A DNA stretch of 64,000 bases from Sphingomonas sp. Leaf357 (lineage in GTDB: Bacteria; Pseudomonadota; Alphaproteobacteria; Sphingomonadales; Sphingomonadaceae): NCBI RefSeq assembly GCF_001423845.1, contig NZ_LMPM01000001.1:180001-244000 (forward strand), read 5' to 3'. Under the pieces are notes generated by a model. That model worked only from the letters and a program-made list of their open reading frames with translations, did no database searches and was not told the DNA's origin. Of the stretch, positions 34,373-48,674 are shown in pieces; position 1 is the stretch's first letter; each line of letters opens with the position of its first letter. The position numbers and the translations under genes are program-made.

Positions 34373-34488
34373 CTAATTTCGACTGTGGTATGCCCCGGTT
34401 ACGGCCGTGTCGACCCGCCAATGCACCGCACTGCTTGTGTGACGAAAATATCACACTACATCTTGCCTGCAACTCAACAGGGCTGACC

Positions 34489-37068
<2,580 letters not shown>

Positions 37069-37074
37069 GCAATC

Positions 37075-38367
37075 CTAGTCGGTGATCTGCGCCCGCGAAT
37101 CGTAACCGTGTGCGTCCGCCAGCGGGAAGAATGCGCGCAGCAGGGCCCGCTCGGCGGGGCGGATGTGAGGGTTCCAGACATCGAAGATTAGGATTGCGCG
37201 CATTTGGTCCGACTCGTTCCAAGCCTCGTGCTCGATCGTATCGTCGAACGCCCAAGCCTCTCCCGCCCGCCAAACCCGCGTCTCGCCACCAACGCGAAAA
37301 CGACAGCCGTCGGGCACGATCAGCGGCAGATGGATGATGGTGCGGACGTTGCTCACCCCGGTATGTGCCGGCAAATGCGTCTCAGGGCGTAGCACCGAGA
37401 AAAATACCGTTGGCGCTCGGGCCGGAAGATCGGCAAGCGGCAATGCTTCGATTGCCGCTGTGGTTTGCGGGCAGCGTGCGCAGGCGGCATCATCGCGTAT
37501 GCCGTTCTTCCAAAGATGGAAAGCGCTCCAATCGAGGTTATGGTCGAGCGGTGACCATTTGTTTTCCGGCGTTCCCGCCGGCATCGCGACATAAGGTGAA
37601 AAGCCAGCCGATGCCTCGGCGAACAGCGCCTCGCACTCGCTGCGGATTATGGCGGTCTTTGCTTCGATGTCCTCAAGCCATGAGAAGTGACGGCGATCGA
37701 AGAATTCATCCGCCGGAAGAAACGGGAAATGCAGTCCCGCGCATTGATTAGAGTAGATTTGGCGTCGCCCGAGCAGATGATCGATGCTGGCATCGAATCG
37801 CCGACGATCCGCACCGTCGATCGCACTTCTGGCGTCGGCAAGCCCTTGATCAAGCGCGGCAGCGAAATCCGCCTGCTGCGCGGTGACATAGGACCGGGCA
37901 TGCGACAGCATCTCATCGATTGCCGGGCTTCGTTCATCCATCTGCACGCCTAGCGCCAAAACGCCGGACCAACGCTCCGCTGCTTGCGCCGTGGCTTCCA
38001 ATCGCTCGAATAATTCGGCCAGCCGCACCAGCGCCATGAAATGATGCTGGTCGATCGCCAGCGCACCTTCCAGCGCAGCCTGCTCGCCCACGGCATCGCC
38101 GCTCGACCGCAGCGCGCGCGCGAGATTTAGGTGCAATTCGGGGGCGTTCGGATCTGCCAGCGTGGCGCGCCGGAACATGGCGGCGGCGGCGGCAAAGTCC
38201 TCTCGCGTGAGTGCTTGAAACCCGAGAATATTGAGGGCCAGCGGATGCTCACCACTACCAACGAGTATCTCGTGACAGAGCTTCGCCGCTTGGTCGTGCC
38301 GCCCCGCGCGCTGCGCCTGACTGGCCGCAGCCAATGCATTTTGAAGGTCCGTTTGATTCATTGTCAT
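37075..38367 (-). CDS. TPR protein with aspartyl/asparaginyl beta-hydroxylase domain (copy 1)
   Basis: A 430-residue cytoplasmic protein. Residues 1-180 form tetratricopeptide repeats (for example ALNILGFQALTREDFAAAA and ELHLNLARALRSSGD). The C-terminal half is an AspH-type 2-oxoglutarate/Fe(II) oxygenase: HTGVSN near 350 supplies the first iron His (with Gly replacing the usual acid, as in AspH), HEAWNESD near 393 the second His, and MRAILIFDVW an Arg for 2-oxoglutarate. AGGAG six bases before ATG 38367 fixes the start. Divergent from a sulfotransferase-like gene and 40% similar by eye to the protein at 39484. Substrate probably a protein Asp/Asn. Confidence 0.88.
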   Translation of the reverse strand: MTMNQTDLQNALAAASQAQRAGRHDQAAKLCHEILVGSGEHPLALNILGFQALTREDFAAAAAMFRRATLADPNAPELHLNLARALRSSGDAVGEQAALEGALAIDQHHFMALVRLAELFERLEATAQAAERWSGVLALGVQMDERSPAIDEMLSHARSYVTAQQADFAAALDQGLADARSAIDGADRRRFDASIDHLLGRRQIYSNQCAGLHFPFLPADEFFDRRHFSWLEDIEAKTAIIRSECEALFAEASAGFSPYVAMPAGTPENKWSPLDHNLDWSAFHLWKNGIRDDAACARCPQTTAAIEALPLADLPARAPTVFFSVLRPETHLPAHTGVSNVRTIIHLPLIVPDGCRFRVGGETRVWRAGEAWAFDDTIEHEAWNESDQMRAILIFDVWNPHIRPAERALLRAFFPLADAHGYDSRAQITD

Positions 38368-38434
38368 CTCAGCTCCTCTATATCCGCTACTTCCCCTAGA
38401 CAAACAGCGCGCATGCCGGGCACTACCGCGGGCG

Positions 38435-39487
38435 ATGAACGCGCGTTTACAAACCATGGTTGGCCTTGCGCCAATGGCTGCGGCCCGCGATCCCGCTTGG
38501 CTCCCGCACCGTTACGATCCGTCACAGGATGCCATACAGTTCCTGCCTGTGCCCCGCGCTATGCACCAGCAAGTGACCTTTATTACCGACGAGTATCTGC
38601 CGAAAGGTCTCGCATCCATTGTCCTGCCGCGCACGCAGGCGAAGATCGGCACGCCGTCCGAAGCGCCGCTGCATTTCGTGTTCCATTCTGCGTTTTGCTG
38701 TTCGACAATGCTGGCACGCGCTTTCGAACGACCTGGCTGGGCGATGGGTCTCAAAGAACCCGTTATCCTCAACGATATCGTGGGGTGGCGTCGGCGCGGT
38801 GGGCAAGGTGCTGACATGGCGACCGTGCTCGACGATGTGCTGGCACTGCTCGCGCGACCATTTGCGCCGGGCGAGGCGGTGATCGTCAAGCCGTCCAACA
38901 TCGTCAACTGTCTCGCTGCGGCGATCCTGACCTTGCGCCCGAACGCCCGTGCTGTCCTGCTTCACGCACCTTTACGCACCTATCTCGGTTCGATCGCACG
39001 TAAGGGGATGGACGGTCGGTTGTGGGTTCGCACGTTGCTGCAGGGGCTGATGGACGACAAGTTGGTCGATTTCGGCTTTACGCCGCGCGACTATCTCGGC
39101 CTGACGGACATGCAGGCGGCGGCGGTGGGCTGGCTTGCGCAGCAAGGGCTGTTCGCGCGACTAATCGAACAGTTCGGGCCGAAGCGTGTCGCAACGATCG
39201 ACAGTGCGGCGGTCACCGGCGACCCCTCCGCGACGATGCGCGCGCTGGCGACGCTATTCGGCTTGCCACTGGAGGTGGCCACGCTAGACGAGATTCTCGC
39301 AGGTCCGGCTTTTACCCGACATTCGAAATTGGAGACAGCCTTCACGGCGGGAGATCGCGCGCAGGAGGTTGCCGACGGCAATCGCCTGCATGCTCCCGAA
39401 ATTGAGATGGTCGCACATTGGGCCGAAGTCGTTGCAGAGACGATGAACGTGCCAGTCGTCCTTCCGGCACCACTGTTATCACGATGA
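38435..39487 (+). CDS. Sulfotransferase-like P-loop protein (copy 1)
   Basis: A 350-residue protein. LHFVFHSAFCCSTMLARAF near 82-100 occupies the position of the sulfotransferase 5'-phosphosulfate loop (canonical PxRSGTT), but with HSxxCCST in place of RSGTT. GLKEPVIL follows, and ARAVLLHAPLRTYLGSIARKG near 172 corresponds to the 3'-phosphate region. The same arrangement is found in the protein at 46672. Whether it binds PAPS is open. It overlaps the following TPR-AspH gene by ATGA. An inner ATG at 38456 is a possible start. Confidence 0.6.
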   Translation: MNARLQTMVGLAPMAAARDPAWLPHRYDPSQDAIQFLPVPRAMHQQVTFITDEYLPKGLASIVLPRTQAKIGTPSEAPLHFVFHSAFCCSTMLARAFERPGWAMGLKEPVILNDIVGWRRRGGQGADMATVLDDVLALLARPFAPGEAVIVKPSNIVNCLAAAILTLRPNARAVLLHAPLRTYLGSIARKGMDGRLWVRTLLQGLMDDKLVDFGFTPRDYLGLTDMQAAAVGWLAQQGLFARLIEQFGPKRVATIDSAAVTGDPSATMRALATLFGLPLEVATLDEILAGPAFTRHSKLETAFTAGDRAQEVADGNRLHAPEIEMVAHWAEVVAETMNVPVVLPAPLLSR

Positions 39488-40659
39488 TCGACGATCTGGC
39501 AGCCTTGGCGCAATCGGGCGTCGCGGCGTTGCAGCGCGGCGATCCAGCCGCCGCCCGTGCGGCTTTCGAGCAGATCGACCGTGCCGGGCGCGGCACGCAT
39601 CAGTTGCGCCTGTTGCTGGCACAGGCCTGCATGCTGGCAAGCGACGGCGCGGCGGCGCATCGTGCGCTGGATCAGGTGCTCGATGCGGAACCCACCAACC
39701 TGTACGCCCTCATCCTACGCGGCGATCTGTATCGCGACGCCGACGACCCCCGCGCGGCGGTCAGTTGGTATCAGGCGGCGCTGGCCCTGGCACCACGTGC
39801 CGGCACCCTGCCACCAGATCTGATCGATGCCCTGCGCCGCGCCGAGGGGGCGGTCGCCCAAGCTGGCGCGACGTTCCAGGCCGCGTTGGACGAAGCTCTG
39901 TCCGATGCGGGGCTGGGAGCACCTGCCCCCGGTTCCCGCCTTACCGAGGCGATGGACATTCTGGCGGGCCGCGCGGAAGTTCATCTCCAGCAGCCAACGA
40001 ATTTCTATTATCCTGGTCTCGCTGCACGCCCGTTTTTTGATCGCGAGCAGTTCGACTGGGTCGTCGGGCTCGAGGCGCGTTCCGACGCCATCAGAAAGGA
40101 GTTGAAAGCGATATTGGCAGATGATGCCGCTCTCAGCCCTTATGTGAAGGCAGAGGCAAATCGCCCCGCCAAGCGCCACTCGCTCCTCGACGATCCCGCT
40201 TGGAGCGCATTTCATCTATACGGAGACGGCGAGCCGCTGGCCGAACACGCTGCACGTTGTCCGGAGACGATGGCAGCGCTCGCCGATCTGCCCATGCCCC
40301 GGATAGCCGGGCGGTCCCCGACGGCTATGTTTTCGGTGTTGCGTGCAGGTACGCACATTCCACCGCATCATGGAATGCTCAACACCCGGCTAATCTGTCA
40401 TTTGCCGTTGATCGTGCCGCGGAATTGCCGTTTGCGTGTCGGCAATGTCACGCAGACAGTCGAACCCGGCCGCATGATGATTTTCGACGATTCGATCCAG
40501 CACGAAGCATGGAATGACAGCGATCAGACCCGCGTTGTCTTGCTCTTCGAGATCTGGCGCCCCGATCTCGATCAGGTCGAGCGCGAGGCGCTCACCAAGC
40601 TGTTCGAAGCGATCGGACGGTTCACGCCCGGCGGATCTGCGGATCAGGCCGGCGCTTGA
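39484..40659 (+). CDS. TPR protein with aspartyl/asparaginyl beta-hydroxylase domain (copy 2)
   Basis: A 391-residue paralogue of the 37075 gene. TPR-like helices fill residues 1-125 (ALQRGDPAAARAAFEQIDRAG, LYALILRGDLYRDADDP); the AspH domain has HHGMLN near 299 and HEAWND near 340 as iron ligands and TRVVLLFEIW with the probable 2-oxoglutarate Arg. Its ATG overlaps the stop of the upstream sulfotransferase-like gene by 4 bp, so the two are co-translated. The pairing of a hydroxylase and a sulfotransferase-like protein suggests they act on one substrate in turn. Confidence 0.87.
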   Translation: MIDDLAALAQSGVAALQRGDPAAARAAFEQIDRAGRGTHQLRLLLAQACMLASDGAAAHRALDQVLDAEPTNLYALILRGDLYRDADDPRAAVSWYQAALALAPRAGTLPPDLIDALRRAEGAVAQAGATFQAALDEALSDAGLGAPAPGSRLTEAMDILAGRAEVHLQQPTNFYYPGLAARPFFDREQFDWVVGLEARSDAIRKELKAILADDAALSPYVKAEANRPAKRHSLLDDPAWSAFHLYGDGEPLAEHAARCPETMAALADLPMPRIAGRSPTAMFSVLRAGTHIPPHHGMLNTRLICHLPLIVPRNCRLRVGNVTQTVEPGRMMIFDDSIQHEAWNDSDQTRVVLLFEIWRPDLDQVEREALTKLFEAIGRFTPGGSADQAGA

Positions 40660-40667
40660 TCGCTACT

Positions 40668-40940
40668 TCAGCAGAACGTTCCGGCCTGGCTCCCACGGCA
40701 GGATTGTGTAGGCCGCATGCTGTCGCGCGCCCGTAACATCTCCCGATCCCAATCGGCCTTCGTCTTGCAGATTTTGCGCTTCGCCACCAGCGACCCGGTA
40801 TCCACTTCACGCTTGCACACCATCGTGCTGGAATCGTCGGTCTTTACCTTGGCCGTGGCGCGCGTCACGACCTCGGTCTGCGCTCCTACCGGGCCACTCA
40901 CCGCCATCGCCACGGCCAGGCCCAACAACATGCGAACCAT
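40668..40940 (-). CDS. Small secreted protein with four cysteines
   Basis: A 90-residue protein: signal peptide residues 1-20 (ends PVGAQ), then a charged mature part with MVCKREVDTGSLVAKRKICKTKADWDR and a C-terminal SCRGSQAGTFC, giving four Cys that could form two disulfides. Found convergent to the AspH gene with 8 bp between stops, and divergent from the TPR-sulfotransferase. No family name known to me; similar short proteins with KxxCKTxxxW occur in sphingomonads, from memory. Confidence 0.7.
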   Translation of the reverse strand: MVRMLLGLAVAMAVSGPVGAQTEVVTRATAKVKTDDSSTMVCKREVDTGSLVAKRKICKTKADWDREMLRARDSMRPTQSCRGSQAGTFC

Positions 40941-41011
40941 GGAAGTCTCCCTTGAATTAGTGTGCGGTTATACCCAAACCGCACTGTAGGAAAAGCGGAA
41001 ACGATGAAGAT

Positions 41012-42667
41012 GTGCAATTGAAACGTCTTAAGAAGATCGCTCAAAAACGCATAATTGATCCGGCGCTCAACGCCAGGATACAACGCGCGCTTGTCGCAAA
41101 CGACATACCCGAGGCGGCACGCCTTGCAGAACAGGCACTCGTGCGCGGAGCGGCCGATCCAATGTTACTCAACCTCGCGGCGTGGCGAAGGGAGGAAGCA
41201 GGAGATTATTTGCGCGCGCACGAACTCTTAAGCCGCGCTCTAGCGATATCGCCTGGCGATGCGCTCATCATGGGAGCGATAGGCGCGGTGTTTCGCAAGC
41301 AAAGCCTGTTCGACAAGGCGCTCGCGATGCTCGATCAGGCGATCGCGATCCAGCCAAGCCATGCAGCGACATGGCTTGAACGCGGATATACGCTCGACGG
41401 TTTACGATTGACGCAGCAGGCTAAACATAGTTACGAGCGCGCGCTTTCGCTCGATGGGAGATTGGCACCGGCTTGGGCGAAACTTGCCGATGTGGCTGCG
41501 AAGGATGGCGACGTCGCCCGCGGCATGTCGCTAGCGGAACGAGCGCTGGCGCTCGACCCCCACGAGCCGACCGCGCAATGCGCGCTGGCGACGATGGAGA
41601 TCGAGGCGCGCGACGGGCAAGCGGCGGAGACCCGGCTAAACGCCTTGTTGGATCGCGCCGTGCCGGAGGAGGTCCGCGTACGCGCGCTGACGCTGCTCGG
41701 CGATGCGCTGGACCGGCAGGATCGGACCGTCGAAGCGTTTGCGTCTTATAATCGTGCGCAGGCCAACTTCCGTATAGTTCATTCCAAAAATCTCGCGCCG
41801 CGCGCAGACCGTCCTTCGCATCGGACATTTATCGAGAACATTGCTGCGCAGGTGCGCTCTGCGTCAGCCATGCCGACGCCACCTGTTGGTGCGATGGAAA
41901 TCGAAGGCGCTGCAGCTATCCATGTCTTCCTGCTCGGTTATCCCCGATCGGGCACGACTTTGCTCGAGAATGTGCTCGCTAGTGCGCCCGGCGTCGCCGC
42001 GTTGGAGGAACGCGAAACGTTGGCCGATACCGACGAGATTTTGGTTCGGAATGACGGTTCGATGCCAGCACTGGACGCGATCGCCCCGGACCTGCTGCAG
42101 CGCCTGCGCACGAGCTATTGGCGGCGCGTACGGACGATGGCCGGCGACGTCTCGAACAAGACCTTCGTCGATATGAATCCCTTCAACGGAATTAAGCTGC
42201 CGGTGATCGCGCGACTGTTCCCACAGGCAAGGATCCTCATCATGCGGCGCGATCCTCGCGATGTCATACTCAGTTGTTATCGCATCAACTTCACACCGAG
42301 CACCGCCGCCTGGGCGTTCAGCGAGCTCGAGGAGGCGGCGCGGCATTATGACGCGTTGATGCAACTGACCGAATTGTGTCGCGAACGCCTGCCACTGGCG
42401 TTTCACGATGTCCGCTACGATCGACTGGTGACGGATTTCGAGACTACGGTCCGCGAAACTGCAGCGTTCATCGGCATCGAATGGACCGAGGCGTTTCATG
42501 CCTTCAATCGGACGGCCCAGACGCGTGGGGTGCGCACTGCGAGCGCAACCCAGGTGCGGCGCGGCCTGTATGACGGCCGCGGACAATGGCGGCGCTACGC
42601 CGATCAGCTGGCACCGATCCTGCCTATTCTGGCGCCGTGGGTCGAACGGCTCGGTTTCGACCAATAG
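41012..42667 (+). CDS. TPR-repeat sulfotransferase
   Basis: A 551-residue protein with an N-terminal array of about six tetratricopeptide repeats (residues 20-260, e.g. AIGAVFRKQSLFDKALAML, AWAKLADVAAKDGDVARGMS) and a C-terminal sulfotransferase domain. The PAPS 5'-phosphosulfate loop LLGYPRSGTTLLENVL is at about 306-321 and the 3'-phosphate motif MRRDPRDVILSCY at about 410, both intact. TPR-sulfotransferases of this type modify proteins (tyrosine sulfation in eukaryotes uses the same fold). The start is GTG 41012 or TTG 41018; no ATG fits and the ribosome-binding site is weak. Next to the large TonB receptor across a shared terminator. Confidence 0.92.
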   Translation: MQLKRLKKIAQKRIIDPALNARIQRALVANDIPEAARLAEQALVRGAADPMLLNLAAWRREEAGDYLRAHELLSRALAISPGDALIMGAIGAVFRKQSLFDKALAMLDQAIAIQPSHAATWLERGYTLDGLRLTQQAKHSYERALSLDGRLAPAWAKLADVAAKDGDVARGMSLAERALALDPHEPTAQCALATMEIEARDGQAAETRLNALLDRAVPEEVRVRALTLLGDALDRQDRTVEAFASYNRAQANFRIVHSKNLAPRADRPSHRTFIENIAAQVRSASAMPTPPVGAMEIEGAAAIHVFLLGYPRSGTTLLENVLASAPGVAALEERETLADTDEILVRNDGSMPALDAIAPDLLQRLRTSYWRRVRTMAGDVSNKTFVDMNPFNGIKLPVIARLFPQARILIMRRDPRDVILSCYRINFTPSTAAWAFSELEEAARHYDALMQLTELCRERLPLAFHDVRYDRLVTDFETTVRETAAFIGIEWTEAFHAFNRTAQTRGVRTASATQVRRGLYDGRGQWRRYADQLAPILPILAPWVERLGFDQ

Positions 42668-42684
42668 ACATCTGCTTTGAACAA

Positions 42685-42711
42685 TAAAAAAGGGGGCGGT
42701 AACCCGCCCCC
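42685..42711 (-). terminator. Intrinsic terminator of the large TonB receptor
   Basis: GGGGGCGG-GTTA-CCGCCCCC on the reverse strand is followed by TTTTTTATTG, a classic rho-independent signal 26 bp past the receptor stop. In the forward direction it may also stop the sulfotransferase transcript, although the T-run there is poor. Confidence 0.85.
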
Positions 42712-42736
42712 TTCCTCGTTTCTGGTTTGACCAGGT

Positions 42737-45700
42737 CTAGTACTTGACGCGAAGACCAACCGCGAAGCGGCGGCCCAGCGCGTCGTAAGTCGACGGATAA
42801 GTGTTGCCGCTGTTGTACGACGTGTTGCCGATCGTACCACCGACGACGGGCGGATCCTTATCAAACATGTTCATCACAGAAATCGTGAAGTCGAAATGGT
42901 CGTTGACGCTGAACCGAGTCGCCAGATCGAAATAGTTGTAGGCGTTGATGTGACCGAAGTTGAACGTCCGGCCAGCCAATGCACCTGTTGCGATCGTGCC
43001 GTTAAAGGTCACAGCATCCGGGTCGGCGTTAACGGCGTCGATATGGCGCCACAACAGCGACAAATCGGCCGATCCGATCGTCAATGTGGTCCGCTGGTTC
43101 CAAGAGAACTTCGGTTGAATAGACGCACAGGTGTTGCTGTAGATACCCACGCAATCGATGACAGACGTTGCCGGAAGTGCGCCGCCGCCACCAGGTGCTC
43201 CGGCCGGCAAAACGCTGCCGGGAACGATCGCCTGGAACTGCGAACGATGCGTCCAGTTGCCCTGGAAGCTAAGGTTCAGCTTCACCGCACCGAAATCGTG
43301 GCGATAGTTCGCACCGATATCAATACCGTCGGTCAGCAACTTGCCGGCGTTCGATGTCGGCAGGATAACGCCCTGCGTGGTCGCGGGATCGCCATCGAGC
43401 TGACCAGTAACTGGGTTACGCTTGATCAGGTTACAGATCGGGTTTGCCGTGGTCGGGTTGGCGAAGCAGGCATTGACCAAATCTTGGCCGGAAGGCGACG
43501 AAATCGCGTTACGGACCAGGATGTTGTAATAATCCGCCGTGATCGAGAAACCGGGGATGAGGCTCTTCGGCTGGAGGACGACGCCGAACGTGTAGCTGTT
43601 CGATGTCTCGGGACGCAGGTACGTGGCGCCCGAAAACGTCCCGTTACCTTGGTTTGCGGTCGGGTTCCGGATGTTGCCGATCGACGCCGCAGGAGCGCCC
43701 TGCGCGATGCAGAGCGTTGCCAGTGCGGTACCGGCCGTTGCCAGGCGGCAGGGATCCGCCGAGATGTTGGTCAGACCCGTGTTGAGCGGCGAGAACAATT
43801 CCGTGATGTTTGGCGCACGAACCGCACGCTGATAGTTACCGCGGAACTTGATGCCGTCGACAGGCTCCCAGCTACCGCCCGCTTTGTAGGTGGTGGTGTT
43901 GTAAGTCGGATTGCCCGCCGCGAACACCTTGTATGCTGAGTAGCGGATGCCGGTTTCGAGCGTCAGGCTCTGGAAACCGGGCCGATCCTGCACGAGCGGG
44001 GCGATCAATTCGCCGTACGCTTCCTTCGATTCATAGCTACCCTGGAAATTCAGCACCGCGCCACCGGCACCGCCCAATTCACCGGCCGTCTGAGAAAGCG
44101 CATCCGCCGTTTGAGCTGCGTAATATTTGCGATATTCGCCACCCACCGCGAAGCCGATCGGATCGCTTGCGAACGGGCTCGACGTGCCGAAGTCGCCGCT
44201 CAACAGCGCCCGGGCCTGCGTCAGCGAAGCCTTTTGCGCATTGGTCGCCGTAGCCGTCAAATACGGGATTTGGTTGGGCAGGATGCTACCGTCGGCGCCA
44301 AAGATATTGACGGGAACGCAGCCCGACCCGGCCGAGGTGCTAGCGCCGCCCGCCGCGAGCGGTGGAAGCAGCGGATTCGGGTTGTTGAGCTGAGGCGCCG
44401 CACCGAGATTACAGCTGGTTGTGCTAGTCGTGTACACTGCAGTGCGCAGGCGCGAAATTAGCACATAGCCATCCTGGGTCTGACGATTCTCGGACTCGCC
44501 GTACGACCCCGAAAGGTCGAGGTCGATCGAATGGGTGATTCCCAACTTCACCCCCGCGCGATAGTCGAAGAACGTCGTCGTGTATTCTGAGTTACGCGTG
44601 CCGACTTCGGTTGTGCGCCGGCCTACCGTGGTGGTGAACGAGCGGAAATTCGGATCAGTCGGGCTGGTGGCCAGAGCCGCCGCGGCGCACTGCGCCGGGG
44701 TCAAAGTCTGGATTCCAGCCGTATTAGGGTCGAAATCGTTGTTTGCACAGAACTGCGTCCGGGCCGCAGCGGGCAAATACGGATTGCTCACCGGGATCGT
44801 CAGGATCTGAGAAAATACACCGGACGGAGCTACGATCGTGCTGACCGTATTCTTGGAAAACATGCCACGCGTGTAGAACTTCACGTTGTCAGCCACGTCG
44901 TAATGCGCTGCACCGTAGATGTTATAGCGCTTAAACGGCGTCTGGAAGATGTTGTACGGGTTGAAGTTGAAGCCGTCGCGCGCACCCGAATAAGGACGGA
45001 GCGCGCCAGTGGAAGGCACGATGGAGTTGAACGCCGTACCGAGCGTGAAACGGCCCGGAACGGTGGTGCCCGAACCGCCCTGCGCACCGGAGGTCGAGGT
45101 GTAGTTGTTGAGCGAGACGTTGCGCGCGCCCTGATAGACCGGATCCGACTTTTGGTAACCAATCGCCAGCACGGCATTGCCGCGACCGTCATCGAAATTG
45201 GCACCCATCGTCAAGTCAGCGCGGAAATACTTGCCATCGCCCTTGCCGGTGATCTGGTTCGACACGTTCGCTTCAAAGCCGCCAAAATCTGACCGCGTGA
45301 TGAAGTTGACCACGCCCGAAACCGCATCGGCACCGTAAGTCGTTGCCGCACCGCCGGTAAGCGTATCGACACGCTGGATCAGCGAGAGCGGAATGTTGTT
45401 GAGATCGACACGACCGGTCGAGTCCGAGGGGGTGATGCGTGAGCCGTCCAGCAGCACGACGTTACGGAAGCTGCCGAGACCACGAAGATCAACATACGAC
45501 GCGCCGCCATTGCCGTTGTTGACGGCCGAACCGATGTTCGGAACCACGCCAGGCAGGTCGCGCAGGATCGATTCGGCGGTATTCGACTGACGCAGCTGGA
45601 TTTCCTCCTGGCCAATAACTGCGACCGGACTCGATGCGATCAAATTTGGATTACGAATCAAAGATCCGGTAACGACGATATCGCCGGCCGATGTCTCATC

Positions 45701-45883
45701 AGCAGGTGGCGCGGACTCTTGGCTGGAAATCCCGGCCGCCGGTGCGCCGGGCGTGGAGGCCTGCACGCCCGTTTTTGGCTGGTTGGCTGGATCGGCGTCT
45801 TGGGCGAAGGCCGGTTGGGTCGCAAAGGCAGCACCGACCAGCAAGGTCGAGGTCAGCAGACGCAGACGATACGTAGCTCGCAT
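42737..45883 (-). CDS. Large TonB-dependent receptor at the centre of the hydroxylase/sulfotransferase cluster
   Basis: A 1048-residue outer-membrane protein. Signal peptide residues 1-27 (FATQPAFAQ); a Gly/Pro/Ala-rich linker; TonB-box-like GDIVVTGSLIRNPN near 63; plug with LRGLGSFRNVVLLDGSRI and GAATTYGADAVSGVVNFI near 165-190; barrel to a terminal Tyr (VGLRVKY). The plug signature is of the oligopeptide/protein-type receptors common in Caulobacterales and sphingomonads. ATG at 45883 has AAGGGG eight bases upstream. Codon use is less GC-biased than in flanking genes. It is the only receptor in the cluster and so the likely target or user of the modifying enzymes. Confidence 0.93.
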   Translation of the reverse strand: MRATYRLRLLTSTLLVGAAFATQPAFAQDADPANQPKTGVQASTPGAPAAGISSQESAPPADETSAGDIVVTGSLIRNPNLIASSPVAVIGQEEIQLRQSNTAESILRDLPGVVPNIGSAVNNGNGGASYVDLRGLGSFRNVVLLDGSRITPSDSTGRVDLNNIPLSLIQRVDTLTGGAATTYGADAVSGVVNFITRSDFGGFEANVSNQITGKGDGKYFRADLTMGANFDDGRGNAVLAIGYQKSDPVYQGARNVSLNNYTSTSGAQGGSGTTVPGRFTLGTAFNSIVPSTGALRPYSGARDGFNFNPYNIFQTPFKRYNIYGAAHYDVADNVKFYTRGMFSKNTVSTIVAPSGVFSQILTIPVSNPYLPAAARTQFCANNDFDPNTAGIQTLTPAQCAAAALATSPTDPNFRSFTTTVGRRTTEVGTRNSEYTTTFFDYRAGVKLGITHSIDLDLSGSYGESENRQTQDGYVLISRLRTAVYTTSTTSCNLGAAPQLNNPNPLLPPLAAGGASTSAGSGCVPVNIFGADGSILPNQIPYLTATATNAQKASLTQARALLSGDFGTSSPFASDPIGFAVGGEYRKYYAAQTADALSQTAGELGGAGGAVLNFQGSYESKEAYGELIAPLVQDRPGFQSLTLETGIRYSAYKVFAAGNPTYNTTTYKAGGSWEPVDGIKFRGNYQRAVRAPNITELFSPLNTGLTNISADPCRLATAGTALATLCIAQGAPAASIGNIRNPTANQGNGTFSGATYLRPETSNSYTFGVVLQPKSLIPGFSITADYYNILVRNAISSPSGQDLVNACFANPTTANPICNLIKRNPVTGQLDGDPATTQGVILPTSNAGKLLTDGIDIGANYRHDFGAVKLNLSFQGNWTHRSQFQAIVPGSVLPAGAPGGGGALPATSVIDCVGIYSNTCASIQPKFSWNQRTTLTIGSADLSLLWRHIDAVNADPDAVTFNGTIATGALAGRTFNFGHINAYNYFDLATRFSVNDHFDFTISVMNMFDKDPPVVGGTIGNTSYNSGNTYPSTYDALGRRFAVGLRVKY

Positions 45884-46107
45884 GAAAGTTCCCCTTTTAA
45901 ATCTTCTCGCCGGTGCACCGGACGCCGATCGCCTGTTAACGATCGCCATATGACTGCTTATGGAACTTTTCCTCGTATCGCCATCTGGCTAGTGGCTGTG
46001 ACAAAAGAATCCAGCGCAGTGTAACATCTTCGACACACTTACAGGCCGCTTGTCGATCCGGGCCGTCTCCCGTACCCAACGTTGAGGGCCACTGAGGAAC
46101 CTGATTT

Positions 46108-46656
46108 ATGCGAACCGAACTGATCGCTTGGTCCACTTACTTGGCAATGTTAGCGCTCGCGATGGCCGGCAGAACGGCATCAGCACAAACCACTTCGGCG
46201 GACGCTATCGTGCAATCGTTCTCGCGTTGCCGACAGATCGAGGCGACCGAAGCACGATTGGATTGTTTCGACAAGTCCGCGCAGGCCTTGGAGAAGGCGG
46301 TCAAGGCGCGAGACATCACCATTGCCGATCGGCAGGAGGTACGCTCGGCGCAACGGTCACTGTTCGGATTCTCGATCGGGCGCATTCCGCTGTTGGGTGG
46401 CAGCGATCATTTGGCGGAGCAAAGAAGACGTGACGCCTTCGACCAACTCGATACCACGGTGGTCAGCGCGCAGCCGGCGGCGAACGGTAACGTCCAGCTA
46501 CGATTAGCCGAAGGTGGCGCGGTATGGATCACGACCGACCCGATGCCTTTCCCGCCGCGGGCAGGCGCAAAAGTCTCTATTAAGCGTGGCGCGCTCGGCA
46601 GTTATTTCATCAATGTCGAGGGGCAGCGTTCTGTGCGGGGCGCGCGCCTGCGCTGA
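46108..46656 (+). CDS. Exported protein of unknown function (182 aa)
   Basis: Signal peptide at residues 1-26 (ends ASAQ). The mature part starts with FSRCRQIEATEARLDCFDKSAQAL, a CxxI-x6-RLxCxD motif seen in several periplasmic families (for example VasI-like proteins), then a basic linker with SLFGFSIGRIPL and a small beta-domain (VQLRLAEGGAVWITTD, GAKVSIKRGALGSYFINVEG). Two Cys probably form a disulfide. Located between the receptor and a sulfotransferase-like gene in the unusual cluster. No function assigned. Confidence 0.75.
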   Translation: MRTELIAWSTYLAMLALAMAGRTASAQTTSADAIVQSFSRCRQIEATEARLDCFDKSAQALEKAVKARDITIADRQEVRSAQRSLFGFSIGRIPLLGGSDHLAEQRRRDAFDQLDTTVVSAQPAANGNVQLRLAEGGAVWITTDPMPFPPRAGAKVSIKRGALGSYFINVEGQRSVRGARLR

Positions 46657-46671
46657 TGGAAGCTTCGACGC

Positions 46672-47658
46672 TTAACCGACCAATCGGCGCGCCTCCAGCG
46701 CCGCCAGGGCGGCACCGGTCTGGGCCCCTCGTGGTTCGATCCAGCGCTGAGCCTGAGCGATCTCGTCCGCGAGGATCGTCTTCAACGTTGCGCGCCGCGC
46801 CAACCGTTCGCTATTGTCGAACGCGATTGCCGGGTTCTTGGAGTAGGTCGAGAACAAGGCGCCTGATATGGTTCGCTCCACACATTCAGGCGACAGCGGC
46901 ACGCGCAATACGGTGGCGGCGGTTGCAAGAGTGACTGCGGGTTCCGCAAAAAAGACCTCGGCGTTCAGGCTCCGCGCACTTGCCATCGTCTCAAGTCCTG
47001 CGGCGAAGGCGCGGATCTGTCCAAGCCATAATGCCGCGACCCGCTCGGCATCCGACCAACGCTCCATATCGCCGAGCCACGGCGCGAGCAGGGTTGTGAC
47101 GCGCCGCAGCCATTCACGGTGATTGTCGCTGCGCAGGATTGCCAGCAAATAATCGTGCAGCGGAAGATACAAAAAGATGGCTGGAGCATTGGGATCGAGG
47201 GTCGCCAACGCAGGTAATAGAAAGTTGACCGGGACATTGGCTTTCACGATCGTGGGAGTATCAACCCTATAGCGTTTGGACAGCATTGCGGAAACCAGAG
47301 CCAGACGATCCGCAGCGATCTCGCCAGGTGCGCGGGCTATCGCCGTTTGGCGCAGCGCGAGCGGCTCGCGCAGTACAAGGTTCGAATCCAGGTGATCGAG
47401 CGCGCGTGCCAAGAGCGTCGATCCACAATGTGCGACATGGAAGATCCAGCCGGTCGCAGCAGGTTGGCGCGGCGCGGCTTCCAGCGCCGAAACAGGAACG
47501 CGCATCGCTCCGTTGGCGGCGGGCGAGATGCGACCGTCGAGGAAGATCGAGCGGTGATACGATGTGCGGTCCATTGGCATGAAAACCGCTGTATTACCCT
47601 CGAACGAATGGAGGTAATGGTCGGGCGAGGCAAAAAGGTCGTCGCGTGTCAGGGCCAT
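46672..47658 (-). CDS. Sulfotransferase-like P-loop protein (copy 2)
   Basis: A 328-residue protein. GWIFHVAHCGSTLLARALD near 92-110 sits where sulfotransferases have their phosphosulfate loop; VKANVPVNFLLPAL and APAIFLYLPLHDYLLAIL follow as core strands/helices. Similar architecture to the protein at 38435 (HxAxCxSTxLARA shared), so both form one branch in which the RSGTT loop is replaced. Divergent, 50 bp away, from a TauD-like dioxygenase gene. Could be sulfotransferase, kinase-like or a binding protein. Confidence 0.6.
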   Translation of the reverse strand: MALTRDDLFASPDHYLHSFEGNTAVFMPMDRTSYHRSIFLDGRISPAANGAMRVPVSALEAAPRQPAATGWIFHVAHCGSTLLARALDHLDSNLVLREPLALRQTAIARAPGEIAADRLALVSAMLSKRYRVDTPTIVKANVPVNFLLPALATLDPNAPAIFLYLPLHDYLLAILRSDNHREWLRRVTTLLAPWLGDMERWSDAERVAALWLGQIRAFAAGLETMASARSLNAEVFFAEPAVTLATAATVLRVPLSPECVERTISGALFSTYSKNPAIAFDNSERLARRATLKTILADEIAQAQRWIEPRGAQTGAALAALEARRLVG

Positions 47659-47708
47659 CGCCCGACCCTATAGCTGGCGACCGATTTTGTCGCTATCCAG
47701 ATCGCGTA

Positions 47709-48674
47709 ATGCCTAAAATTTCCCTGCCGGAGCCCGGCCGTCCGCAAGTCCTGATTGAGCCCGCCGAAGAGCGGACGATTCTGGCGATCGATCCGGCGCA
47801 GATCATCGCTCTGTTTAAGGCGCATGGCGCGTTGCTCTTTCGGGGTTTTGCCGCCGATGTCGGACAGTTTCGAAGTTTCTCTCGGCTGTTCTGTCCAACC
47901 TCCGTCATCAACGAAAGTCCTGGCCGACAGCCGATTGATCCCACTCACAATATCCATACCGTCGATGGTGGGACGGGTGCCTTCTCTTTACATCCCGAAC
48001 TGTCGCGCGAGCCTTGGAAGCCAGACGTGGCCTTCTTCGCGTGCCTGTCTCCACCTTCTCAGGGCGGTGCCACGCTGATTTGCGACGGCGTAGCGCTGGT
48101 CCGCACGTTACCCGACGTCGTGCGACGCGGTCTCGAACATCGTCGTCTGCTATACATTAAGCCGACATGGCCGGAACTGCTCGAATTCTGGCTCGGCGAC
48201 CCAAATCCCAGCGATGCTTTGCTGGACGCACCGCCCTCCGACTGCCCCTATCTATTCCGGCGACTGGAGGACCAAATCGTACGATTCTTCACGCGACCGG
48301 CGCTGCATCGCCCGATGTTCATCGACGAACCGGCGTTTGGCAACTTCCTGCTCTTCGCGCGCTTCAACAATAACCGTCGAGATTTCCCCGTGTTGGACGA
48401 CGGTTATCCGGTGCCCGAGGCATGGCTACAGGCGATCAAGGCAGCCGGCGACTCGATCGCGGTGCCGATCGCATGGCACATCGGCGACCTGCTGATGTTG
48501 GACAATACGCGTTTTATGCACGGCCGCACGCCGATCATTGATGCGAAGGAGCGATTGATCGCGACGTATTTTGGGTATGTCGGGTTTGCCAAGCCCGATC
48601 CGGAGGAGCCTGCCGATCCGCTTTGGCGCCGCGCCGATTTTTATCCGCCTTTCCCGCCCGGATTGCCGCGCTGA
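47709..48674 (+). CDS. TauD/TfdA family 2-oxoglutarate/Fe(II) dioxygenase
   Basis: A 321-residue protein with the TauD jelly-roll pattern. GALLFRGFAAD near 38 is the family N-terminal strand; the proximal iron ligands are His and Glu in FSLHPELS near 98 (HxE in place of HxD), and the distal His with the 2-oxoglutarate Arg is in TRFMHGRTPI near 279. FNNNRRDFPVLDDGYP is typical of the clavaminate-synthase-like branch. ATG 47709 gives MPKISLPEPG; an upstream 21-codon extension would overlap the divergent gene. Probably hydroxylates an amino acid or peptide. No ribosome-binding site stands out. Confidence 0.85.
   Translation: MPKISLPEPGRPQVLIEPAEERTILAIDPAQIIALFKAHGALLFRGFAADVGQFRSFSRLFCPTSVINESPGRQPIDPTHNIHTVDGGTGAFSLHPELSREPWKPDVAFFACLSPPSQGGATLICDGVALVRTLPDVVRRGLEHRRLLYIKPTWPELLEFWLGDPNPSDALLDAPPSDCPYLFRRLEDQIVRFFTRPALHRPMFIDEPAFGNFLLFARFNNNRRDFPVLDDGYPVPEAWLQAIKAAGDSIAVPIAWHIGDLLMLDNTRFMHGRTPIIDAKERLIATYFGYVGFAKPDPEEPADPLWRRADFYPPFPPGLPR

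Follow-up and report, generated by a model that had tools for sequence, protein, structure and literature searches.

A gene cluster predicted to encode hydroxylases and sulfotransferases around a TonB-dependent receptor in Sphingomonas sp. Leaf357

Several described systems resemble parts of the gene cluster considered here. AspH hydroxylates EGF-like domains that have a Cys-bounded loop. Loci of the piuA/fiu-piuC type associate a TonB-dependent receptor (TBDR) with a PiuC-like 2-oxoglutarate (2OG) oxygenase, TBDR loci of Xanthomonas and Caulobacter carry SapC, Pass1 and tryptophan halogenase genes (no paper on these was found), and the secreted peptide RaxX is sulfated by RaxST. The cluster analysed here belongs to Sphingomonas sp. 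Leaf357 and was studied within a stretch of 64,000 nucleotides (contig NZ_LMPM01000001.1, positions 180,001 to 244,000), hereafter the window. It consists of nine genes located between clpB and an M23 peptidase gene (37075-48674 of the window), and no paper on such a cluster was found in the open-access literature, among the matches listed. Its genes recur around related receptors in other genomes of the order, with enzymes that differ from one locus to another. Its enzymes could form a cytoplasmic set by which one of the locus's own protein products is hydroxylated and sulfated prior to export, a reading that is tentative but quite possible.

A preliminary description, made from the sequence alone, had named two AspH hydroxylases with TPR parts, a TPR-sulfotransferase, two sulfotransferase-like (STl) proteins, a TauD-type oxygenase and a TBDR. 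All are present, as judged by Pfam matches and, for STlA, by fold, STlB being its paralogue. The genes, in order of position in the window, are the following.

37075..38457, minus strand: TPR-AspH hydroxylase 1 (AspH1); PF05118 at 149 bits, weak TPR matches
38435..39487, plus strand: STlA, sulfotransferase-like, without Pfam match
39484..40659, plus strand: TPR-AspH hydroxylase 2 (AspH2); PF05118 at 153 bits
40668..40940, minus strand: small Cys-pair protein of 90 amino acids, named the TGSLV family here; family profile at 46 bits, E 2.2e-19
41012..42667, plus strand: TPR-sulfotransferase, similar to tyrosylprotein sulfotransferases (TPST); PF13469 at 109 bits
42737..45949, minus strand: TBDR; PF07715 plug and PF00593 barrel
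45659..45676 (approximate), minus strand: TonB-box region of the TBDR, VVTGSL, by direct sequence reading
46108..46656, plus strand: hyp46, Cys-pair protein with a hydrophobic N-terminus, divergent from the TBDR
46672..47658, minus strand: STlB, second sulfotransferase-like protein, paralogue of STlA
47646..48674, plus strand: TauD-family iron and 2OG-dependent (Fe/2OG) oxygenase, divergent from STlB; PF02668 at 96 bits

The preliminary description had made its hypothesis depend on co-occurrence across sphingomonads, and this co-occurrence is strong. Among 196 genomes of the order, AspH-profile matches (E <= 0.001, including TPR-only matches) were found in at least 162, TPR-sulfotransferase matches (E <= 1e-20) in at least 118, STl proteins in at least 59 and receptor relatives (E <= 1e-150) in at least 34, these tallies being lower bounds with the best 9 AspH, 7 TPR-sulfotransferase and 3 receptor candidates scored per genome. 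The small-protein family occurs in 92 of these genomes. The neighbourhoods of STl genes were compared in 59 stretches, covering 60 of the 73 matches other than the window's own (most of the other 13 are weak matches or come from short contigs), and were divided by search rank into 34 STlA-type, 13 STlB-like and 12 second-class loci. Of the STlA-type loci, 32 of 34 carry a TBDR no more than 5 kb away, and in all 32 it is convergent. Within the same distance are found AspH (22/34), the small protein (24/34), hyp46 (15/34), which recurs near a TBDR in other loci, and the TPR-sulfotransferase (6/34). Starting from the receptor, an STl gene read by eye adjoins it in 24 of the 34 receptor-bearing genomes; in the ten others it lies elsewhere (G065, G034, G062) or none was found (G175, G061, G071, G152, G044, G027, G148). 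Among 80 loci found through AspH in named genomes, 28 contain, in the stretch examined, a protein that matches the receptor of the window, and 52 do not.

Twenty control stretches, all taken at one fixed coordinate, contain no receptor, AspH, STl, TPR-sulfotransferase or small protein above 100 bits. The best strays are TPR-sulfotransferase-like matches at 52 bits (L195) and 20 bits (L199) and a receptor fragment at 22 bits (L189); a ClpB relative occurs in L194. In the same way, weak receptor matches in STl stretches (68-74 bits in L124, L126, L129 and L132; 28 bits in L134 and L139) were not counted.

The association is also seen in the divergence of the partners. When mapped on a tree of 72 receptor rows, the presence of STl requires 9 changes, versus 20.4 in shuffles. 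Furthermore, STl and TBDR co-diverge beyond what the ClpB marker accounts for (partial Mantel r 0.40, p 0.0005, 2000 permutations, 26 loci), and so do AspH and TBDR (r 0.34, p 0.001, 20 loci). The near-duplicates L017, L094 and L114 were removed from these comparisons; since one AspH, the best, was taken from each locus, the two paralogues may be mixed.

The site itself recurs. The flanking genes, which lie outside the system, are conserved and adjoin the cluster in other genera too.

34390..37068, plus strand: clpB; TIGR03346 at 1376 bits
48676..49599, minus strand: M23 peptidase; PF01551

When each genus was represented by a single genome, 57 of the 59 genomes had a clpB match. The 20 of these 57 with the best clpB scores were retained for a census of the downstream stretches, leaving aside the window's own genome and G140 (L167), which carries a receptor, a TPR-sulfotransferase and a TPR-oxygenase. 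A TBDR above 300 bits was found in 13 of the 20, at least one enzyme above 100 bits in 9, both in 8 and the small protein in 6; receptor and enzymes are both absent from L210, L211, L216, L222, L223 and L224. The enzyme combinations vary: AspH, STl, TPR-sulfotransferase and TauD in L208 and L215, TPR-oxygenase and AspH in L212, STl and a PF13661-type oxygenase in L218. The cluster genes were described as lower in G+C-biased codons than the flanks, and the G+C content at third codon positions agrees with this (0.66-0.79, versus 0.84-0.89 in six of seven flanking open reading frames (ORFs) and 0.71 in the seventh). The separate history proposed from this bias finds no support as a recent import, an explanation weakened by the conserved genomic site, since related receptors are housed between clpB and M23 in other genera.

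The two AspH proteins are paralogues (38% identity). Both score far above the PF05118 family cut-off of 22.6 bits. H289, H293, H304 and H338 are invariant across 14 sequences, and the conserved motifs, with the two His that we take to be ligand residues, align to the AspH structure 8re8. The best match of the oxygenase part in the PDB is AspH, clearly matched by profile A1; for the TPR part, the top matches are engineered TPR proteins. Membership in OlsC or LpxO was rejected. The genome's other two AspH genes lie in 19-kb stretches (L005, L006) in which no matches to other cluster proteins were found. In the TPR-sulfotransferase, the motifs for the sulfate donor 3'-phosphoadenosine 5'-phosphosulfate (PAPS) are intact, as had been claimed: PRSGTT is followed by a Glu and by the 3' R..S motif in alignment with TPST 8w5z. 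At E <= 0.001 its catalytic part matches seven sequences in the PDB, every one of them a TPST.

STlA and STlB are paralogues (27.7% identity, E 1.6e-24) for which no Pfam or NCBIfam family was found at E <= 0.01. They have the sulfotransferase fold, TPST being the nearest solved relative of STlA by fold; in a comparison of the STl profile with PDB sequences the best match reaches only E 0.18. The STlA relative P0218 has a source name starting with "Sulfotransfera". E108 is invariant in 38 STl sequences and lies 17 residues after the motif, presumably the position of the catalytic Glu of TPST. STlB and TauD form a two-gene module that can sit elsewhere in the genome (L133, L140), and an STl-TauD pair is also present in L007, L008, L015, L208 and L215. 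In each of the 13 STlB-like loci an Fe/2OG oxygenase, belonging to any of three families, is encoded no more than 5 kb away, and a PF13661-type oxygenase is found in 4 of the 12 second-class loci.

A PF13640-type oxygenase adjoins the STl gene in 10 of the 13 STlB-like loci (L134-L137, L139, L141-L145), and L137 is the only one of these ten to have a receptor above 100 bits no farther than 5 kb away; this pair is perhaps an independent two-gene system. The second-class loci L121, L122, L123, L126-L129 and L132 lack a receptor above 100 bits, and neither the small protein nor any of the scored enzymes is encoded within 5 kb.

The preliminary description had also counted two disulfide-type periplasmic proteins. 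One is hyp46 (46108-46656, plus strand) and the second is most likely the small protein at 40668-40940 on the minus strand. An overlapping plus-strand ORF (40717-40989) was rejected as a gene, the conserved frame being that of the minus strand. For the small protein no Pfam match was found at E <= 0.05, nor was any Pfam family for hyp46 at the limits used; VasI membership of hyp46 was rejected (21 of 124 bits, and 16.4 of 26.5 for its relative in L107). Both have a hydrophobic N-terminus in a hydropathy window, in which the receptor peaks at 1.62 and TauD at 1.54 (residue 44). As judged by this window, the two small proteins and the receptor would be secreted and the enzymes cytoplasmic. The TGSLV family comprises 37 copies in 25 loci, with up to four in tandem (L106) and variable C-terminal tails. 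Its core, C-x6-G-S-x7-C-x-T-x3-W, is invariant in 20 aligned members, except for the Ser (at least 90%). Among the 97 best matches (93 of them within fetched stretches or the window), those with a TBDR no more than 6 kb away number 32 of 34 for ranks 1-34, which are partly circular with the alignment derived from STl loci, 15 of 25 for ranks 35-60 and 15 of 34 for ranks 61-97. TGSLV proteins away from receptors, often in tandem, are seen in L151, L152, L157, L165, L170, L178 and others.

The loop of the small protein is often TGSL or TGSR and so echoes the linked receptor's own TonB box (TGSL with TGSL, TGSR with TGSR). The residue after GS agrees in kind, hydrophobic or not, in 49 of 51 loci (Leu in the TonB box with a hydrophobic loop residue in 29, non-Leu with non-hydrophobic in 20, mismatches 1 + 1), leaving out L118, which has both kinds, L088, for its length, and loci without a readable motif. 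On the receptor tree, each state changes only twice and no independent pair supports the matching. Because about two evolutionary changes underlie it, this match is only a lead. In relatives away from any TBDR, the residue is R in 12, L in 10, I in 3, others in 4 and unread in 3.

In the reading that we prefer, the locus would yield one large TBDR, two small secreted Cys-pair proteins and cytoplasmic enzymes that alter side chains. The TPR-AspH hydroxylases would add a hydroxyl to Asp or Asn of a protein that the locus encodes. Sulfate would be added to it by the TPST-like sulfotransferase, perhaps with STlA and STlB. Either a small secreted protein or the receptor could be modified in this way, or indeed both, and modification would precede Sec export. 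The decorated product could then act with the receptor at the cell surface, for example by setting the ligand bound or the partner accepted. Modification of a protein fits, since the closest relatives of solved structure are protein-modifying enzymes, and protein substrates fit best because enzymes related to either catalytic type have secretory proteins as substrates and because no inner-membrane transporter family was assigned among the cluster genes (Pfam, NCBIfam). They also fit because AspH is reported to need its TPR part to act on its protein substrate (PMC12816917).

A number of observations weigh against this proposal. The partners are patchily present: within 5 kb, AspH is missing in 12 and the small protein in 10 of the 34 STlA-type loci, the TBDR is missing in L101 and L102 (the latter without any scored partner), and L149, L155, L183 and L209 have a TBDR and a small protein with no scored enzyme above 100 bits. 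None of the 12 second-class STl loci has a TBDR above 100 bits or a small protein within 5 kb, and many relatives of the small protein sit away from any TBDR. The window's small protein has no Tyr, and therefore a TPST-like enzyme could not sulfate Tyr there. Among 40 receptors, Tyr or Asp/Asn columns tracking the enzymes gave weak signals confounded by phylogeny and no convincing target. Finally, the PAPS-site Arg position, aligned by eye, is occupied by Phe in STlA and His in STlB, and no Arg is among the invariant residues of the 38 STl sequences; the sulfate donor of both is uncertain because this usual Arg is absent.

The main rival, less likely but serious, is that the enzymes process an imported ligand. 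A peptide, a siderophore or some other compound taken up by the receptor would be hydroxylated and sulfated in the cytoplasm, to be released, used or detoxified. A change of ligand would explain the changing enzymes, several Fe/2OG oxygenase families are found near related TBDRs, siderophore receptors are known to be accompanied by a PiuC-like oxygenase and TauD enzymes act mostly on small molecules. However, this explanation is at odds with the lack of an assigned inner-membrane transporter in the window's cluster and with the AspH and TPST relatives and TPR parts, which point to protein substrates, and it leaves the linked small secreted proteins unexplained. These small proteins could instead be precursors of a modified exported peptide, similar to a signal or siderophore and re-imported by the receptor, in the manner of ribosomally synthesized and post-translationally modified peptides. 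The tandem copies beside the enzymes, the variable tails and the precedent of RaxX agree with this, whereas the N-terminus is Sec-type, conservation falls on a Cys loop instead of a core that follows a cleavage site, the cluster genes include no recognised leader peptidase or dedicated exporter and family members also occur away from TBDRs (L151, L152 and others), which makes this origin doubtful.

It is improbable that the hydroxylases act on lipids like LpxO or OlsC and the sulfotransferases on outer-membrane glycolipids, the linkage to the receptor reflecting shared regulation: OlsC (88 and 107 bits) and LpxO (52 each) are the best NCBIfam models for the AspH proteins, but these scores are far below the cut-offs (450 and 500), and the N-terminal TPR matches and the clear match to AspH structures speak otherwise. 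Just as little probability is given to neighbours without joint function, held together by the old site beside clpB. Related receptors share this site in 13 of the 20 stretches from different genera, clpB and M23 are likewise conserved there, and the linkage counts, which share ancestry, are consequently not independent. Against this, the STlA-TBDR pair also occurs at other sites, beside genes resembling rsmD/rluB by eye (L087, L095, L096) or without clpB in the stretch (L100, L108, L117, L120), and STl-TBDR co-divergence exceeds that with ClpB.

Some gene boundaries deserve precision. The receptor is large, as described, and its ORF has 1070 codons from the first ATG; the figure of 1048 residues given earlier presumably reflects a later start codon. 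AspH1 probably starts at an inner ATG near 38367 and TauD near 47706. The reading frames of STlA and AspH2 share an ATGA overlap, which suggests that their translation is coupled.

Parts of the cluster are also found in Roseateles (L014) and in metagenome-assembled genomes (MAGs) of Steroidobacteraceae (L050) and Robiginitomaculum (L048, L056). In L050 and in L055, an uncultured proteobacterium MAG, the TBDR and TPR-sulfotransferase ORFs, taken from their first start, overlap by about 30 bases on the same strand in an operon-like manner, and AspH, PF13640-type oxygenase and STl genes lie nearby. A TPR protein, which in L137 (12122-13612) has a PF13759 oxygenase domain, accounts for 18 ORFs across the receptor-rich loci examined, including L150, L153, L161, L162, L167 and others.

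If the proposed decoration of a locus-made protein is correct, bacteria would possess a system that hydroxylates and sulfates proteins and is linked to an outer-membrane receptor. It would provide bacterial models for AspH and TPST chemistry and an entry to orphan sphingomonad receptors; STl and the small Cys-loop protein are two protein families without a Pfam match. A bolder extension, which we consider a long shot, is a bacterial counterpart of the decoration made in the animal secretory pathway, in which a receptor-bound module with exchangeable enzymes (AspH, TPST-like and others) would hydroxylate and sulfate the receptor and its small secreted partners ahead of export, and the Cys loop would be a matched TonB-box mimic or would share one modification site with the receptor.

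Compared with human AspH (the organism to which we assume the matched PDB chains belong), the cluster's hydroxylases have the same succession of a TPR part and a PF05118 oxygenase domain. They differ in being bacterial, without endoplasmic reticulum, and in occurring as two copies near a TBDR, with no EGF-like domain assigned by Pfam to the receptor or the small secreted proteins. TPST1/2 are close known relatives of the TPR-sulfotransferase. As in piuA/fiu-piuC loci, a TBDR adjoins a cytoplasmic Fe/2OG oxygenase, whereas seven enzyme families and two small secreted proteins are found here across loci, and no siderophore genes were recognised among those of the window's cluster. The loci with SapC, Pass1 and halogenase likewise associate a TBDR with unusual cytoplasmic modifying enzymes, but the enzyme set is different, and none of these genes could be recognised among those of the present cluster. 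The RaxX/RaxST system of Xanthomonas shares bacterial sulfation of a secreted peptide; here no related exporter was recognised, and the receptor belongs to the locus.

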